Assembly (NCBI GenBank): GCA_947454705.1
Contig: CANGKZ010000003.1
Location: 124,001-188,000 of the forward strand
DNA: 64,000 nucleotides
Reading direction: 5' to 3'
Origin: Verrucomicrobiota bacterium
GTDB lineage: Bacteria > Verrucomicrobiota > Verrucomicrobiia > Limisphaerales > UBA9464
Under the pieces are notes generated by a model. The model worked only from the letters and a program-made list of their open reading frames with translations. It made no database searches and was not told the origin of the DNA. Shown here in pieces: positions 36,675 through 43,558 of the stretch (positions within the stretch are counted from its first letter, which is position 1; every line of letters starts with the position of its first letter). A program made the position numbers and the translations under genes.

Positions 36675-38429
36675 TTAGAACCCGAGATCGGTCACAGCGC
36701 CTTCGCTCGCGGTGCTCACCGTCGCCGCGTACTTAGCGAGGATGCCGCGGGTGTAGTTCGGACGCGGCTGCTTCCACTTGCGCAGGCGGGCGTCGAGCTC
36801 CTTGGCCGGGATCGCCAGGGTGATGGCACGCTTCTCGGCGTCGATCTCGATCGGGTCGCCGTTCTTGACCACGGCGATCGGACCGCCGTCAAACGCTTCC
36901 GGCGTCACGTGGCCGATCACGAATCCGTGGGAACCGCCGCTGAACCGTCCGTCGGTGATCAACGCCACGTCCTTGCCCAGCCCCTTGCCCATGATGGCGC
37001 TGGTCGGGGAGAGCATTTCGCGCATGCCGGGTCCGCCCTTGGGGCCTTCACCGCGGATGATGATCACGTGGCCCTTCTTCACCTTGCCGTTGAGAATGCC
37101 TTGGAGCGCCTTCTCCTCGTTTTCGAACACGATGGCGCGTCCGGAGAACTTCAATCCCTCCTTGCCGGAGATTTTTCCAACCGCGCCGCCCGGGCAGAGG
37201 TTGCCGCGGAACACGACGAGATGGCTCGAGGGCTTGATCGGATTGTCGAAGCTGCGCACCACATCCTGGCCGGCAGGATACTTGGGAGCGTTGCGGAGAT
37301 TCTCGCGCAGGGTCTTGCCGGTGACGGTCATGGCGTCGCCGTGGAGCAGGCCCTCGTCGAGGAGCATCTTCATCAGCGGAACCGTTCCGCCGATTTCCAC
37401 CAGACGCGCCATCACGTACTTGCCCGACGGCTTGAGGTCCGCCAGCACGGGCACGCGTTTGCCCACGCGGGTCCAGTCGTCGATGGTGAGCTTCACCCCG
37501 GCAGAATGGGCCATGGCGATGAGGTGCATGACGGCATTGGTGGATCCGCCGAGCGCGATCACCAGGGTCATGGCATTCTCAAACGCCTCGCGGGTCATGA
37601 TGTCGCGGGGACGGATGCCGCGCTTGATCAAATTCAGCACCGCCGCACCGGCCTGCTCGCAATCCAGCGTCTTGTCCTTGGACACCGCCGCCTGCGCGGA
37701 GGAGTTGGGCAAGCTCATGCCCAAGGCTTCGATCGCGCTGGCCATGGTGTTGGCGGTGTACATGCCACCGCAGGATCCGGCACCAGGGATCGCCACCTCG
37801 GCGATGGCTTCGACCTGCTCGGCCGAACAGGAGCCGGCGGCGTTCTTGCCCACGGCTTCGAAAATGTTCACCAGATCCACGTCCCGGCCCTCGTGTTCTC
37901 CGGGGAGAATGGTGCCGCCGTACACGAAGATCGAAGGGCGATTCAACCGGCCCATGGCCATGATGCAGCCCGGCATGTTCTTGTCGCATCCGCCCACGGC
38001 CACAAACCCGTCAAAGCCCTGGCAGCCGACCACGGTTTCGATCGAGTCGGCGATCACCTCGCGGGACACCAGCGAATACTTCATGCCCTCGGTGCCCATC
38101 GAGATGCCGTCGGAAATGGTGATGGTGTTGAACACCACCGCCTTGCCACCGGCTTCGTTGATCCCCTGGGCGACGCTCACCGCGAGCTGGTCGATGTGCA
38201 TGTTGCACGGCGTGACCATGCTCCAGGTGGAGGCGACGCCGACCTGGGATTTCTTGAAGTCCTCCTTCTTGAACCCGGTGGCGTAAAGCATTCCGCGGCT
38301 CGGAGCGCGCTCGATGCCGTCCACGACAATGGAAGAAAAAGCGCGCTCGAGGGAGGCCGGATTGGCTTTCCCCTTCTTGGCGGTGGTGGTCTTCGACGAG
38401 GATTTCTTGGAAGTGGCGATCTTGCTCAT
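36675..38429 (-). CDS. ilvD: Dihydroxy-acid dehydratase
   Basis: 584-residue Fe-S dehydratase for the third common step of valine and isoleucine synthesis. The start at 38429 ([21 protein letters not shown]) leaves a Lys/Ser/Thr-rich tail of about 25 residues before the conserved [13 protein letters not shown]. Cluster ligands align at C75 (VTPCNMH), C148 ([10 protein letters not shown], with K150 beside it) and C220 ([14 protein letters not shown]). The C terminus has the usual [20 protein letters not shown] 7-bp hairpin (CCGCAAA/TTTGCGG, 38464-38486) lies in the leader. The gene is not clustered with other ilv genes. Confidence 0.97.
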
Positions 38430-38463
38430 GGCTGGCCCCGTCAGTGTGCCGAAGCCGGGCGAC

Positions 38464-38486
38464 CCGCAAAGGCGAAAGTTTTGCGG
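38464..38486 (-). promoter_or_regulatory. Hairpin in the ilvD leader
   Basis: CCGCAAA and TTTGCGG pair across 9 bases, about 35 bases upstream of the ilvD start. No leader peptide rich in Ile, Leu or Val was noticed beside it, so classical attenuation is not supported. Confidence 0.25.
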
Positions 38487-38684
38487 AACAGGGCCGTGCA
38501 TCGCGCCGTCCTCCCCTCGAAATCAGGTTCCCAAACCGCCGCGCCTCAATCCTCAACCCCAACGAACGTTGCGCGGGCGCAGGAAAACCAAGTAGGATGT
38601 CACCGGGCCAGCGCAAGGGCGACCCACTCCGGCTCGATAGGGTATTCCCCTATTTTGGTACAGGTTGAGCCTTTGACGCATTCG

Positions 38685-38759: not shown

Positions 38760-39575
38760 ATGAAATCGAATTTTGAGACCCGAAGCCGTGCGACCTACCG
38801 TCCCGGCATCCTGGCACTGGCTGTCGGGGCATTTGCGCTTCCGGTGTCGGTGTCGGCTGCCCTGACTGTTTACGAACCCTTTAACTACGCTGCAGGTTCG
38901 TTGACCGGGCAGAATGGTGGATTCGGCTTCGCCTCCGGTTGGACCGCCACGACCGGCACTTCAACGGTTGCAACGCCGAGCCTGACCTATTCGACGGTTC
39001 CCTCTATTGGAAATCGGGCGACCACGGCAGCCGCCACTGCAACCACCCAGACTCGCGCCCTCACCTCCGCGCTCGGGACTGGAACCTACTACATCAGCTT
39101 TCTCCTCCGCCCCGACAACACGGCCGCGGGCAACAATGCCGAATTTGCGCTCATCGGCAGCACGGCGAACCTCTTCATTGGAAAGCCGACCTCGGGAAAC
39201 AACTACGTTCTCGACACCCTGGCCACGGCGGGCGGCACCCAGAACGCCAGCAGCGTTTCCTACTCCAGTGGCGCCACCGTTTTGATGGTTCTCAAGGCCA
39301 CGCTCGGTGCAGGTGGTGACACCTTCCAGCTCTACATCAATCCGAGCGTTTCCGCCGAACCGGGTTCCAGCGACGCCACCAAGTCGGGATACGACATCGG
39401 CAACGTCACTTCGCTGCAGTTCACCGGCAACCTCGGATTCAGCATCGACGAGCTCAAGATTGGCTCCTCGTATGCCGACGCGGTGCCAGAGCCCAGCACC
39501 TACGCCGCTGGCTTGGCCGTCGCCACTCTTGTGGGGATGACTTGGATGCGCCGCAAGGCCGCCAAGAAGGCTTGA
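38760..39575 (+). CDS. PEP-CTERM sorting domain protein, copy 1
   Basis: 271 residues from ATG 38760; the much longer open frame upstream is antisense to ilvD. A signal peptide ends near VSVSAA (about residue 35). The body is beta-rich and low in charge (YEPFNYAAGSLTGQNGGFGFASGW, TYYISFLLRPDNTAAGNNAEFALIGS) and resembles the concanavalin-like fold of many PEP-CTERM proteins. The C terminus is a complete sorting signal: VPEPST, a hydrophobic helix and RRKAAKK. It should be cleaved by an exosortase (not in the window) and delivered to the surface or exopolysaccharide matrix. Two paralogues follow in tandem, and a strong terminator follows this copy. Confidence 0.88.
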   Translation: MKSNFETRSRATYRPGILALAVGAFALPVSVSAALTVYEPFNYAAGSLTGQNGGFGFASGWTATTGTSTVATPSLTYSTVPSIGNRATTAAATATTQTRALTSALGTGTYYISFLLRPDNTAAGNNAEFALIGSTANLFIGKPTSGNNYVLDTLATAGGTQNASSVSYSSGATVLMVLKATLGAGGDTFQLYINPSVSAEPGSSDATKSGYDIGNVTSLQFTGNLGFSIDELKIGSSYADAVPEPSTYAAGLAVATLVGMTWMRRKAAKKA

Positions 39576-39595
39576 TTCGCTCAGCTCCTTCAAAC

Positions 39596-39630
39596 AGGGC
39601 GCCGGACCTCCGGCGCCCTTTTTGTTTTTG
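39596..39630 (+). terminator. Rho-independent terminator of PEP-CTERM copy 1
   Basis: AGGGCGCCGG and CCGGCGCCCT form a perfect 10-bp stem with loop ACCT, followed by TTTTGTTTTTG. Confidence 0.93.
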
Positions 39631-39639
39631 AAGAGGTGT

Positions 39640-39930
39640 TTTAGAGCTCGGTCGTCCCCAAGCATTACCGAGCGGGAAGTGCACCCGATGGTGCAATCAC
39701 CGGACTGAAATGGAGCCGTTATAACTCTTTCGTAGCATTGGATTTCAACAAGACCGCCACCCACCTTAGCGGGCGGTTGGGAGCATCGAAATTCCGTCAA
39801 AAAGGGCTTCAGATTCCGAGAAAGGAGGTCGATACGACCGCTGATTCGAGCCCGCGAAGTGACTCGAATTAGGGCATGCCAGATGCCCGGTCACTTGGAC
39901 CGGGTGTATGACGAATGCGACGTCATGCCC
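39640..39930 (+). other. Hairpin-dense non-coding spacer
   Basis: No gene is visible between the first terminator and PEP-CTERM copy 2. The stretch holds at least six short perfect inverted repeats: GCTCGGT/ACCGAGC (39646-39673), TGCACC/GGTGCA (39680-39695), GGTCG/CGACC (near 39827), GGGCAT/ATGCCC (39872-39888), CCCGGTC/GACCGGG (39886-39904) and ATGACG/CGTCAT (39908-39926). The GGGCAT and CCCGGTC stems share bases 39886-39888 and so exclude each other. It could be a structured leader of copy 2 or an unannotated small RNA. Confidence 0.4.
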
Positions 39931-39962
39931 AAACGCAGCTTCGCCCGCCCGCCAAAAGCATC

Positions 39963-40826
39963 ATGACCTCGACGCCTCGTTCGACTTTCGCCCTTCCAAC
40001 ACTCCTCGTTCAACTTGTCGGCCTTGGTCTCGGAACGGCGGCTGCGACCGTTCCCGCATTGGGCAGCCTCGTTGCCTACGAAGGCTTCGACTACACCGCG
40101 TCGAGCTCGTTGGCTTCGCAAAACGGTGGAACTGGATTCAGCGGCGGTTGGACCGCCACGACTGGAACATCCACCATCGGCAACCCCGGCTTGACCTATG
40201 GATCGATGAACGTCATCGGCAATCGCGCAACGACCCCGGTCCAGAACACCACGTTTTCCCGGTCCCTGCTCACAACCCTAGGATCGGCGACTGGTACCTA
40301 CTACTTTAGCTTTATCCTGCGTCCCGACAATTCCTCCAGCAGCAACGGAGCGGAATTCGCTCTGACGGGCAGCACGGCCAGCCTCTACGTGGGAAAACCG
40401 ACCACCGGCAACTTCTACGGCCTGGACACGGTGGGAAACGGCGGCGGCGGAACTCAGAACCTGACTTCAACCCAGTTCGCCAGTGGCACAGCGGTGCTGA
40501 TGGTGCTTCGCGCCGACTTTGTTTCGGGTGGCGCCGATACTTTCAAACTCTATATCAACCCGAACCTGACCGCCGAACCGGGCAGTGCTGATGCGACGAA
40601 AACCGGTTATGATGTCGGCAATGTCAGCGGAATTCAGTTCACCGGGAACATCGGATTCAGTTTCGACGAACTGCGAATTGGAACCAGCTACGCCGACGTC
40701 GCCAGCGCAGTGCCAGAATCCGGCACTTGGGTGGCGGGTTTCGCCCTTACCGGGGTCACGGCTGCGGGCTGGCTACAGACCCGCAAGAGCCGCACTCACC
40801 AACCAAACGGCCCGAAAAACATTTAA
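39963..40826 (+). CDS. PEP-CTERM-like protein, copy 2 (VPESGTW variant)
   Basis: 287 residues from ATG 39963 (MTSTPRSTFALPTLLVQ), with a signal peptide ending near ATVPALGS. The core aligns with copies 1 and 3 along its length: YEGFDYTASSSLASQNGGTGFSGGWTATTGTST, TYYFSFILRPDNSSSSNGAEFALTGS, LYINPNLTAEPGSADATKTGYDVGN. It is the most divergent copy. The sorting signal reads VPESGTW, a hydrophobic helix, then TRKSRTHQ, so Pro of the PEP motif is replaced by Ser and a 14-residue polar tail extends beyond the basic cluster. Confidence 0.85.
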   Translation: MTSTPRSTFALPTLLVQLVGLGLGTAAATVPALGSLVAYEGFDYTASSSLASQNGGTGFSGGWTATTGTSTIGNPGLTYGSMNVIGNRATTPVQNTTFSRSLLTTLGSATGTYYFSFILRPDNSSSSNGAEFALTGSTASLYVGKPTTGNFYGLDTVGNGGGGTQNLTSTQFASGTAVLMVLRADFVSGGADTFKLYINPNLTAEPGSADATKTGYDVGNVSGIQFTGNIGFSFDELRIGTSYADVASAVPESGTWVAGFALTGVTAAGWLQTRKSRTHQPNGPKNI

Positions 40827-40840
40827 TCAGCAATCCCTTC

Positions 40841-40866
40841 CACCGGTTCAACCGGCGGGGATTTTA
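40841..40866 (+). terminator. Weak terminator of PEP-CTERM copy 2
   Basis: CCGGTT-C-AACCGG, extended by flanking CC and GG, is followed by GGGGATTTT. The short loop and short T-run make it weaker than the other terminators here. The remaining 228 bases up to copy 3 show no gene. Confidence 0.4.
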
Positions 40867-41094
40867 TCGGGATCTGACGGTTGCGGAGCCACAGCGGGAG
40901 CGCCCCAGTAGAATTTGGGTAAAAAACCTGACAAATTCCCTTAAGGATTTGGAGGGGCTACCGATGACTTGGATGCAGGTTATTCAGAAGGCGTAGGGTT
41001 TCATGAGAAGTTGTAGGTTCTTGGTTGATGTCGTGTGGACCAGGAATCGAGGAGCTCGTGACTTCGACGCTAAAAAATCGAACCGCCATCCATC

Positions 41095-41973
41095 ATGCAG
41101 CCTTCCAACCCCACACGTCGTCCTTGGGCTTACGCTTCCCACCGTGCAGCACCCGCGCTGATCCTTTCACTCCTTCCGCTATCCGTTTCTGCAGCGCTGA
41201 CCACCTACGAGCCTTTCAACTACTCCACGGGATCCCTGACCGGGCAAAACGGCGGCGTTGGTTTTGCCTCCGGTTGGACCGCCACGACCGGTACTTCAAC
41301 CGTTGCGGCGAGCAGCCTGACCTACACGACGGTTCCTTCCCTTGGAAATCGTGCGACCACCGCAGCGGCCACTGCAACCACCCAGACCCGCAGTCTCACG
41401 TCCGCCCTTGGCAACGGGACCTACTACGTCAGCTTTCTCCTCCGCCCCGACAATACAGCAGCGGGCAACAACGCCGAGTTCGCGCTCATTGGCAGCACGG
41501 CCAATCTCTACGTCGGGAAGCCAACCTCGGGAAGCAACTACGTTCTCGACACCTCGGCGTCGGCGGGCGGCACGCAGAACGCCACCAGTGTTGCCTACGC
41601 CAGCGGCACCACGGTTCTCATGGTGATCAAAGCCACCCTCAGTGCGGGTGGTGATTCCTTCCTGCTCTATATCAATCCGAGCGTTTCCGCCGAGCCGGGT
41701 TCCAGCGATGCCACCAAAACTGGTTACGACATTGGCAACATCACCTCGTTGCAATTCACGGGAAACCTCGGGTTCAGCATCGACGAACTGAAGATCGGTT
41801 CCGCTTACGCCGACGCCGTACCGGAGGCCGGCACCTGGGGATCCGTGTTTGCCGTTTTGGGAATCGGATGCGTCGCCTGGTTGCGTCATCGCGATGCCAC
41901 CCGCAAAACACAGTCTGTCGCTCTGGCCGCTCCTGCCGTGCCACAGCCTCCGGTACCGAAGTCCGTCTCCTGA
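41095..41973 (+). CDS. PEP-CTERM-like protein, copy 3 (VPEAGTW variant)
   Basis: 292 residues from ATG 41095 (MQPSNPTRRPWAYASHRAA), signal peptide ending near LSVSAA. The mature core is nearly the same as copy 1, with long identical blocks (TAAATATTQTR, LRPDNTAAGNNAEFALIGSTANL, YINPSVSAEPGSSDATK). The sorting signal is VPEAGTW, a hydrophobic helix and WLRHRDATRK. A further tail of about 20 residues (SVALAAPAVPQPPVP...) follows, which is unusual because PEP-CTERM proteins normally end right after the basic cluster. Processing may therefore be altered. Confidence 0.85.
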   Translation: MQPSNPTRRPWAYASHRAAPALILSLLPLSVSAALTTYEPFNYSTGSLTGQNGGVGFASGWTATTGTSTVAASSLTYTTVPSLGNRATTAAATATTQTRSLTSALGNGTYYVSFLLRPDNTAAGNNAEFALIGSTANLYVGKPTSGSNYVLDTSASAGGTQNATSVAYASGTTVLMVIKATLSAGGDSFLLYINPSVSAEPGSSDATKTGYDIGNITSLQFTGNLGFSIDELKIGSAYADAVPEAGTWGSVFAVLGIGCVAWLRHRDATRKTQSVALAAPAVPQPPVPKSVS

Positions 41974-42025: not shown

Positions 42026-43558
42026 ATGAACCGGATCCGTGCGCTGACTACAACAGGTGGCAGAATTTTTCTGGGAGCGCTGCTGCTCGGCCTCCTCACT
42101 GGAATCCTTTCTGCCCGGGCGGCCGACGCGCCGCCCGCGATCTCGCGCGAGTTTCGCGCGATGTGGATCGCCTCCGTCGGCAACATCGACTGGCCCACCA
42201 AGCCCGGCCTTTCGGTCGCCCAACAGCAGCAGGAATTGCGCGTGCTCCTCGATGGAGCACGCAGCCTGAAGCTCAACGCCGTTCTTCTACAGGTCCGCAC
42301 CGCGTGCGATGCCCTTTACGCCTCCCCGTATGAACCGTGGAGCGAATACCTGACCGGACGCATGGGCGAAGCGCCGGGCGGCGGATGGGACCCCCTGAAG
42401 TTCGCCTGTACCGAAGCTCACGCCCGCGGACTCGAACTGCATGCCTGGGTTAATCCGTTTCGCGCCCGCTACCACCAGGCCATTTCCCCCATCTCCAAGG
42501 ATCACGTCAGCTCACGTCATCCCGACTGGGTGGTCTCCTACGTCAAACACCTCTGGCTCGACCCCGGAAATCCCGCCGCCCGCGAATGGTCGCTCAAGGT
42601 CATCACCGACATCGTGCGTCGCTACGACATCGATGGCCTGCACATGGACGATTACTTTTATCCGTACCCGGAAAAAGCAGGCGGCGTCCCGATCCCCTTC
42701 CCCGACGATCCCAGCTACGCGCGCTACCGCCGATCCGGTGGGACTCTCGAACGCGACGATTGGCGGCGCGACTGCATCAACTCCTTCGTTCAACAACTCA
42801 ACTCCTCCATCCACAGCACCAAACCGTGGGTAAAATTCGGGATCAGTCCGTTCGGCATTTGGCGTCCGGGATTCCCGGCTGGGATCAAGGGGTTCGATGC
42901 CTTCGCCCAACTCCATGCCGATGCCCGCCTCTGGCTTCAGAACGGCTGGTGTGACTACTGCGCGCCGCAGCTCTACTGGTCACTCGACCGCAAGGACCAA
43001 AACTTCCAGTCATTGCTCCGATGGTGGATCGAGCAAAACCCGCACGGACGCTGGATCGTGCCCGGGCTCGCCAGCGCAAGCATCGGAAAGGACCGCACCG
43101 CCGACGACACCGCGAATCAAATTCGGATCACGCGTCAGGAAGGCGGAGCCGCGGGAGTGGTGTTCTGGAATTCGAGCAGCCTGCGCGACAACCTCGGTGG
43201 AATTTCGGTCGGACTCGGACGCGAGCTCTTCGCCCGCCCGGCCATCGTCCCGGCCGCTCCTTGGCTCGGCCGACGCGCCCCGGAACGTCCGATTCTCGAG
43301 GGCCGCTTCCTGCCCCGCCCCGGAGCAATCCGCCTCGCCTGGAAACCCGGCAGCGGAGAGCCAACGAGCGTGCTGGTGATGCAATCCCGCACCGGATCCC
43401 AGTGGACCACCGAGGTCATTGGAGCCATTCCGGGCGGACGCGAAATCCCCCGACGACGCGGTGTCGCATTCCCGGATGAAGTGCGCCTGATACCGGTCGG
43501 ACGCACTGGAGCCCTGGGCGAATCCGCCGTCTGGAATCGTCCTGAAGGCGTCCGCTAA
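42026..43558 (+). CDS. GHL10 (DUF187) family glycosidase-like protein
   Basis: 510 residues from ATG 42026 (MNRIRALTTTGGRIFLGALLLGLLTGILSARA, signal peptide); ATG 42008 is an alternative. The TIM-barrel domain carries the GHL10/YngK signature: EFRAMWIASVGNIDWPTKPGLS, LNAVLLQVRTACDALYASPYEPWSEYLTGRMG, GLELHAWVNPFRARYH, and DGLHMDDYFYPYP with probable catalytic acidic residues. WVKFGISPFGIWRPG and DYCAPQLYWSLDRKD complete it. The last 100 residues form a beta-rich domain. The family is related to GH10/GH13-like barrels and is thought to act on peptidoglycan-like or other glycans; the activity here is not known. Confidence 0.88.
   Translation: MNRIRALTTTGGRIFLGALLLGLLTGILSARAADAPPAISREFRAMWIASVGNIDWPTKPGLSVAQQQQELRVLLDGARSLKLNAVLLQVRTACDALYASPYEPWSEYLTGRMGEAPGGGWDPLKFACTEAHARGLELHAWVNPFRARYHQAISPISKDHVSSRHPDWVVSYVKHLWLDPGNPAAREWSLKVITDIVRRYDIDGLHMDDYFYPYPEKAGGVPIPFPDDPSYARYRRSGGTLERDDWRRDCINSFVQQLNSSIHSTKPWVKFGISPFGIWRPGFPAGIKGFDAFAQLHADARLWLQNGWCDYCAPQLYWSLDRKDQNFQSLLRWWIEQNPHGRWIVPGLASASIGKDRTADDTANQIRITRQEGGAAGVVFWNSSSLRDNLGGISVGLGRELFARPAIVPAAPWLGRRAPERPILEGRFLPRPGAIRLAWKPGSGEPTSVLVMQSRTGSQWTTEVIGAIPGGREIPRRRGVAFPDEVRLIPVGRTGALGESAVWNRPEGVR

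Follow-up and report, generated by a model that had tools for sequence, protein, structure and literature searches.

Probable segmental concerted evolution of the core beneath position-specific tails in a tandem array of PEP-CTERM-like genes from an uncultured Verrucomicrobiota

We analyzed a stretch of 64,000 nucleotides (hereafter, the window; positions 124001–188000 of contig C3) from the genome of an uncultured Verrucomicrobiota (G000; 5.45 Mb, 80 contigs), which contains a tandem array of three genes, c1, c2 and c3, encoding proteins with PEP-CTERM-like tails. Comparison with two congeners, G006 and G007, showed that trees of the core and of the tail conflict: the core is species-specific, whereas the tails follow gene position across species, and identity switches from one pattern to the other at the PEP motif. 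We regard as probable, although short of secure, that these patterns reflect an old segmental concerted evolution of the core, by non-reciprocal gene conversion, under two fixed tails, the roles of donor and recipient being reversed between G000 and G006.

The first-pass annotation of the window described a tandem triplet of paralogues, and this description held: three consecutive open reading frames (ORFs) lie there on the forward strand (c1, 271 aa; c2, 287 aa; c3, 292 aa), all with the core motifs that it had quoted. Each protein consists of an N-terminal signal peptide (identified by eye), a core of ~205 residues and a PEP-CTERM-like tail. In G006, the first and last copies (t1 and t2) are located on contig C127; in G007, the first copy (G007_C437) and a fragment of the last copy (G007_C693) are on separate contigs. 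The parts of the array are as follows.

38760..39575, + strand: c1, the first copy, with a canonical A-type tail (VPEPSTYAA...), defined by ORF, translation and synteny; it holds the position of G006_t1 and G007_C437
38895..39482, + strand: homogenised core of c1, approximately residues 46–241, from the identity switch and the nucleotide view; the 3′ edge is the PEP motif and the 5′ edge is approximate
39483..39572, + strand: A-type PEP-CTERM-like tail of c1, from model scans, identities, the tail tree and the tail control
39963..40826, + strand: c2, the middle copy (287 aa), with its own divergent core and tail, not homogenised; VPESGTW at 40710
41095..41973, + strand: c3, the last copy (292 aa), with a B-type tail carrying a proline-rich extension; it holds the position of G006_t2 and the G007_C693 fragment
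41230..41817, + strand: homogenised core of c3, approximately residues 46–241, from identities, the nucleotide view and the identity switch
41818..41970, + strand: B-type tail of c3 (VPEAGTWGSVFAVLGIGCVAWLRH...), with a long extension past the basic residues, from best matches and a tree-topology test

For c2, translation could alternatively begin at an in-frame ATG further upstream, at 39915.

Over the core, c1 and c3 were identical at 178 of 204 residues (87%), compared with 129/203 (63%) for c1 and c2 and 127/203 (62%) for c2 and c3; the two G006 copies were identical at 203 of 210 (96%). The core of c1 shared only 125/202 residues (61%) with its same-position orthologue G007_C437 and 108/202 (53%) with t1. 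In the tails this ranking was reversed: the paralogues c1 and c3 agreed at 9 of 30 residues (30%) and t1 and t2 at 17 of 31, whereas genes at the same position were 56–72% identical (c1 and G007_C437, 21/29; c1 and t1, 17/30; c3 and t2, 25/41; c3 and G007_C693, 25/43). In the core tree, c1 and c3 were sisters (support 91/99, not starred), and approximately unbiased (AU) tests rejected both the grouping of the first-position genes c1, G007_C437 and t1 (cost 211 log-likelihood units, P = 2.5e-57) and that of the last-position genes c3 and t2 (cost 181 units, P = 3.9e-44). For the tails, it was the paralogue pairs that these tests rejected (c1 with c3, P = 0.0055; t1 with t2, P = 0.0126). A tree grouping each copy with a different orthologue had been named in advance as evidence against recent duplication or conversion; the tail tree places c1 and c3 in this manner and the core tree does not.

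We further resampled alignment columns to obtain 95% intervals for the paralogue-minus-orthologue difference in identity. Measured against G007_C437, this contrast for c1 was +0.26 in the core (0.18 to 0.33) and –0.41 in the tail (–0.59 to –0.24); against t1, it was +0.34 in the core and –0.27 in the tail (–0.43 to –0.10). For c3 measured against t2, the values were +0.33 (0.26 to 0.41) and –0.37 (–0.57 to –0.13), respectively. The cumulative identity curve switched at alignment columns 280–281 (three triples tried), and the PEP motif begins at column 278. A purely rate-driven similarity was rejected because the ranking of paralogues and orthologues reverses between core and tail; differences in rate alone should not produce such a reversal, while recombination can.

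As a control, each tail was compared with 26 other tails from G000 and 11 tails from the family. The two best partners of c1, c3, t1 and t2 were in each case genes at the same position (for example, G007_C437 and G006_t1 for c1, and G007_C693 and G006_t2 for c3). The DNA at the gene ends was also aligned, and scores were compared with the maximum of 30 shuffles, with 3′ windows beginning 100 nt before the stop codon. The 3′ stretch of c1 and t1 scored 60 against a shuffle maximum of 25, and the alignment continued through a terminator-like hairpin beyond c1:

39596..39619, + strand: intrinsic-terminator-like hairpin of 10 pairs, 3′ of c1

The 3′ scores for c1 and G007_C437 (60; shuffles, 23) and for t1 and G007_C437 (66; shuffles, 24) arose mostly inside the tail itself. 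For c3 and t2, similarity extended past the stop codon (37 versus 24) and was also present upstream (33 versus 27), and the upstream DNA of c1 and G007_C437 scored 25 versus 21. A scan of the region found six terminator-like sites, compared with 4.6 in shuffles, so that the scan alone gives no evidence for the hairpin after c1; 0 sigma-70-like promoter sites were found in the array region (shuffles, 1.0). As a separate observation, an A(T/A)TCCCCTATT-like element is present upstream of c1 (window 38636–38665) and upstream of G007_C437, with a weaker form near G006_t1. A regular-expression search of the DNA preceding 25 further PEP-CTERM ORFs did not recover this form of the ATTCCCCTATT-like element seen upstream of c1.

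The same two genes enclose the array in G000 and the two copies in G006:

36675..38501, – strand: conserved upstream neighbour, which we take to be ilvD (dihydroxy-acid dehydratase); protein identity 88% to G006 and 95% to G007 over the match
42026..43558, + strand: conserved downstream neighbour, presumably a family-10-like glycosyl hydrolase; 79–80% protein identity

A presumed sugar-isomerase-like gene is also located downstream of the array, and the G006 copies have the same neighbours. In G007, contig C437 carries ilvD and the first copy, and contig C693 carries the end of the last copy and the hydrolase; the two contigs presumably adjoin. The tree of the flanking genes was (G006,(G000,(G001,G007))), with support of 91/93, not starred, for the branch uniting G000, G001 and G007. 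In G002–G005, ilvD and the hydrolase are on different contigs, and the G001 contig with ilvD stops 258 bases beyond the gene, before any array would show. Because its tail and flanks match the last copy of the congeners, c3 predates the species split.

These observations suggest the following course of events. The array would be an old tandem set of exported lectin-like proteins with exosortase-type sorting tails, and in the ancestor of the three species the interval from ilvD to the hydrolase would already have contained a first gene with an A tail and a last gene with a B tail. Later non-reciprocal recombination among the tandem copies would have overwritten one core with the other within a lineage, from the first core into the last in G000 and, apparently, from the last into the first in G006. 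The exchanged segment would stop at the PEP motif, leaving the tails largely not overwritten, and c2, whose gene is 57–58% identical in DNA to c1 and c3, would have been too diverged to take part. That c2 lies untouched between c1 and c3 would follow because the conversion was non-reciprocal, and two compensating unequal crossovers could do likewise. The tails may have been retained by selection, or just because recombination depends on similarity. Gene conversion had already been suggested by the first-pass annotation as keeping c1 and c3 alike, and the present results support it in a form that is segmental and not recent.

With regard to age, the whole-gene synonymous distances (dS; NG86 method) were 0.98 for c1 and c3, 1.76 for c1 and c2 and 2.17 for c2 and c3; the three genes are old copies. 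Over the core, dS was 0.76 for c1 and c3, 0.27 for t1 and t2 and 1.41 for c1 and G007_C437, and three flanking genes gave dS of 1.10, 1.67 and 0.66 between G000 and G007; these values are near saturation. The exchange between c1 and c3 thus probably, if not securely, postdates the species split, without being recent. The long identical blocks previously noted in these two genes exist in protein but not in DNA, where identity is unbroken for at most 26 nt of 813, a length reached in 336 of 5000 shuffles; the likeness is therefore old. For t1 and t2, the longest run is 86 nt, which was reached in only 2 of 5000 shuffles. A synonymous-site comparison, which had also been proposed, gave a lower synonymous difference (pS) in the core than at the ends both for c1 and c3 (0.48 versus 0.72–0.75, P = 0.049) and for t1 and t2 (0.22 versus 0.42–0.45, P = 0.023). 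With regard to direction, a one-residue insertion in the core is common to t1, t2 and G007_C693 and is absent from c1, c2, c3, G007_C437 and five dispersed copies; most simply, this points to transfer from the last copy to the first in G006 and in the opposite sense in G000. For the core fragment of G007_C693, groupings with G007_C437 (P = 0.0047) and with c3 (P = 0.012) were both rejected.

Several observations weigh against conversion as we reconstruct it. One flanking gene has a lower dS (0.66) than the c1–c3 core (0.76), so that a date after the species split is not secure, and no long DNA identity is left between c1 and c3. The synonymous contrast is weak and non-specific, since the orthologues c3 and t2 (P = 0.047) and the pair c1 and c2 (P = 0.067) gave similar values. 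The direction is read from a single indel within 41 columns, for which branch support was 90/89 and G007_C693 was flagged as a long branch; the G007 array is split over contigs, its last-copy core amounts to 41–42 residues only, and the locus is carried by three species only. Being short, the tails left 33 columns for the tail tree, none of whose branches is starred. The tail contrasts of G006 were not significant, whether for t1 (against G007_C437, –0.17, –0.41 to 0.07; against c1, 0.00, –0.27 to 0.27) or for t2 (against c3, –0.10, –0.29 to 0.10; against G007_C693, 0.00, –0.19 to 0.23). At the DNA level, the upstream alignment of c1 and t1 (20 versus 23) and the 3′ alignment of c3 and G007_C693 (22 versus 25) did not exceed shuffles, whereas t1 and t2 beat them at both ends (34 versus 24 and 45 versus 24). 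The latter score of 45 belongs to the stretch in which the t1 tail shows a B-like patch, IAWLR; the G006 N-termini are alike at 23 of 32 residues, more than to congeners. The G006 exchange probably reached the N-terminus, and elsewhere the N-terminal sequences do not decide. Since the N-termini and the tail patch of G006 look exchanged, the gene ends are not perfectly insulated.

Among the alternatives, the one that survives best, as a possible but rather unlikely explanation, is that cycles of unequal crossing-over, with expansion and contraction of the array, homogenised the cores while the unique outer ends and spacer survived. Consistent with this, the copy number differs (three in G000 and two in G006), the 3′ flanks of the first and last copies are conserved, and the two copies and single spacer of G006 fit well. 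However, the homogenised pair in G000 flanks the divergent c2 with its own tail, and a single unequal exchange within that pair would either remove c2 or duplicate it, so that two compensating events would be needed. A somewhat more doubtful proposal concerns the tails: they may be held apart by selection, with different exosortases, of the four present, reading each, so that one lectin-like core, kept uniform by conversion, is sent to two destinations or fates. If so, the end of the converted segment at the PEP motif would mark a modular system of the same cargo under two address labels.

It is improbable that the genes were duplicated independently in each lineage and that the last tails are alike through convergent function or were taken from another PEP-CTERM gene. 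The tails are indeed short and functionally constrained, the PEP-CTERM protein sets of genomes show rapid turnover (Haft 2006, PMC1569441), and the tail contrast in G006 is weak. On the other hand, a specific motif and the proline-rich extension are common to the B tails, which match one another better than they do the 26 other G000 tails; the 3′ flanks match, and a sister position of the G007_C693 core fragment to G007_C437 was rejected. Duplication of c1 across c2, the other origin of c3 that the first-pass annotation had offered, can be set aside as very improbable in spite of the 87% core identity and the sister position of c1 and c3 in the core tree, since the tail, downstream flank and short upstream stretch of c3 match the last-position gene of the congeners, that gene is present in both G006 and G007, and the tail tree rejects the c1–c3 pair; a recent duplication of this kind was rejected on tails and synteny.

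We next consider the tails themselves. All three proteins had been called PEP-CTERM proteins; of these, only c1 carries a tail of canonical form, and c2 (VPESGTW) and c3 (VPEAGTW) matched no PEP-CTERM model in the Pfam and NCBIfam scans. Scanned alone, the c1 tail scored 20.5 bits against a Pfam cut-off of 20.7 and 14.8 against an NCBIfam cut-off of 16; in the PF07589 search of the genome, c1 scored 24.5 bits, over the Pfam cut-off, and it was absent from the three TIGR02595 genome matches at E 0.001. The PF07589 search (E up to 1) gave 32 places, of which 17 were marked as exceeding the cut-off. Among 26 of these places whose tails we read, six carried VPEA in place of VPEP, as in c3, all under the PF07589 cut-off. 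The tails of c2 and c3 therefore look like a local variant, and decay was rejected on these grounds. An exosortase was correctly reported to be absent nearby: PF09721 had no match on contig C3, and the full-genome search found four exosortases over the cut-off on other contigs (C26, C21 and two on C10), one of which may sort the array proteins. All four stretches were over the TIGR04178 cut-off and two over that of TIGR02602, and none reached an NCBIfam cut-off for a named exosortase type. All eight genus genomes had an exosortase match over the cut-off. Separately, two same-strand exosortase genes with matched parts ~0.9–1.5 kb apart occur in four of the eight (G000:C10:13427–16513, G006:C83, G002:C111 and G004:C125), hinting at a conserved pair.

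Regarding the core, a scan of genome contigs with c1 alone as the query found one locus only (L026). A four-row profile at E 1e-8 matched four of the eight genus genomes (G000, G001, G006 and G007) and 15 of the 50 family genomes listed; in G002–G005 there was no core match at this threshold, with weak matches alone listed. Outside the genus, many matches were in long ORFs (up to 2576 aa) and some in short ones, for example G016:C36 (387 aa, with a VPEP tail at its end), G051:C341 (335 aa) and G060:C37 (314 aa). No Pfam model covered the core in scans of c1–c3 and six extra-genus ORFs, five of which contained Ig-like, cadherin-like, TIG, TSP3 or M4-peptidase domains over the cut-offs. Because it recurs in such ORFs, the core is probably an extracellular module. 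Its recurrence in large multi-domain proteins of extracellular type (L041, L042, L043, L044 and L017) makes it a candidate new domain family.

An AlphaFold model of the core, built from four rows that came from the window and L026 only, had a mean pLDDT (predicted local distance difference test) of 51.6, and the structural comparisons that follow refer to this low-confidence model. In a Foldseek search against the PDB, the best match was 2a5z, a protein of unknown function (E 1.7e-5); many of the 50 rows shown were L-type or legume lectins over model residues 32–243, and pilins and phage fibres also appeared. On structural re-comparison, 2a5z had a Z score of 9.9 over 176 residues (root-mean-square deviation, 3.9), followed at Z 8 to 9 by a sialidase lectin domain, GH43 accessory domains and ERGIC-53, structures of the concanavalin-A-like (ConA-like) fold. 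A Z score of at least 8 was reached by 11 of 1000 chains, values under 8 being common by the tool's own warning. The beta-rich model and its many matching rows suggest a likely ConA-like jelly roll, as in lectins and glucanases, and glycan binding may be its role. This assignment differs from a typical one in the low pLDDT, in the single weak match of a PDB sequence-profile search (E 0.41) and in the absence of any Pfam lectin match in c1–c3.

Two dispersed relatives of the core are located on contigs C9 and C45 of G000. Their cores are 71% alike, whereas that of C45 is 79% alike to those on the congeners' contigs C55 and C107; C9 and C45 are thus not homogenised. Among neighbouring PEP-CTERM genes in G000, the likeness of the tails was at least that of the bodies in seven of seven chosen comparisons (four within one array), which is the reverse of c1 and c3. 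As an observation in its own right, the end of C42 (L063) and the start of C8 (L060) share sequence by eye and hold a further PEP-CTERM array, which is broken across the two contigs and probably comprises four or more genes. Its C42 gene looks mosaic: one stretch is identical to C8:1221 at 131 of 135 nt (91/135 to C8:532), and the next is nearer to C8:532 (78/90) than to C8:1221 (58/90).

The array genes share with the PEP-CTERM/exosortase system (TIGR02595, PF07589, PF09721; PMC1569441) an N-terminal signal seen by eye, a Pfam-unmatched body, a C-terminal VPE motif followed by a hydrophobic stretch and basic residues, and exosortases unlinked in the genome; they differ in the VPES and VPEA motifs of c2 and c3, which miss the models, and in the long extension of c3 past the basic residues. 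PEP-CTERM regions are generally described as more alike within than between species (Haft 2006, PMC1569441), whereas here the tails follow position across species and the bodies are species-specific. Segmental concerted evolution as such is already known. In Helicobacter pylori homA and homB, one segment clusters by strain and the other by orthologue, and gene conversion is given as the explanation (PMC2795765). The same split, one segment by genome and the other by orthologue, was supported here by AU tests in both directions. The present case differs in that it lies between species, in a tandem array of Verrucomicrobiota, with the boundary at a sorting motif and the tail as the unshared segment. 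Segmental concerted evolution has reportedly also been described for babA and babB (as cited in PMC2795765). In the open-access library searched, we found no report linking PEP-CTERM proteins with gene conversion or concerted evolution.

It had been suggested that the array could serve as a repertoire of matrix proteins; homogenised cores are the opposite of what would be expected of a diversity-generating repertoire. Our reading, old conversion of the core under two fixed tails, would mean that the evolution of cargo and of sorting signal is separated in PEP-CTERM-type proteins, the tails being the old, position-specific part and the bodies the homogenised part, in contrast to the published description of tails more alike within species. 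It also carries a warning that whole-gene trees of such arrays may mislead orthology calls. Naturally occurring pairs of this kind, sharing a core but not a tail, would allow one to ask whether the multiple exosortases of one cell have distinct substrates.

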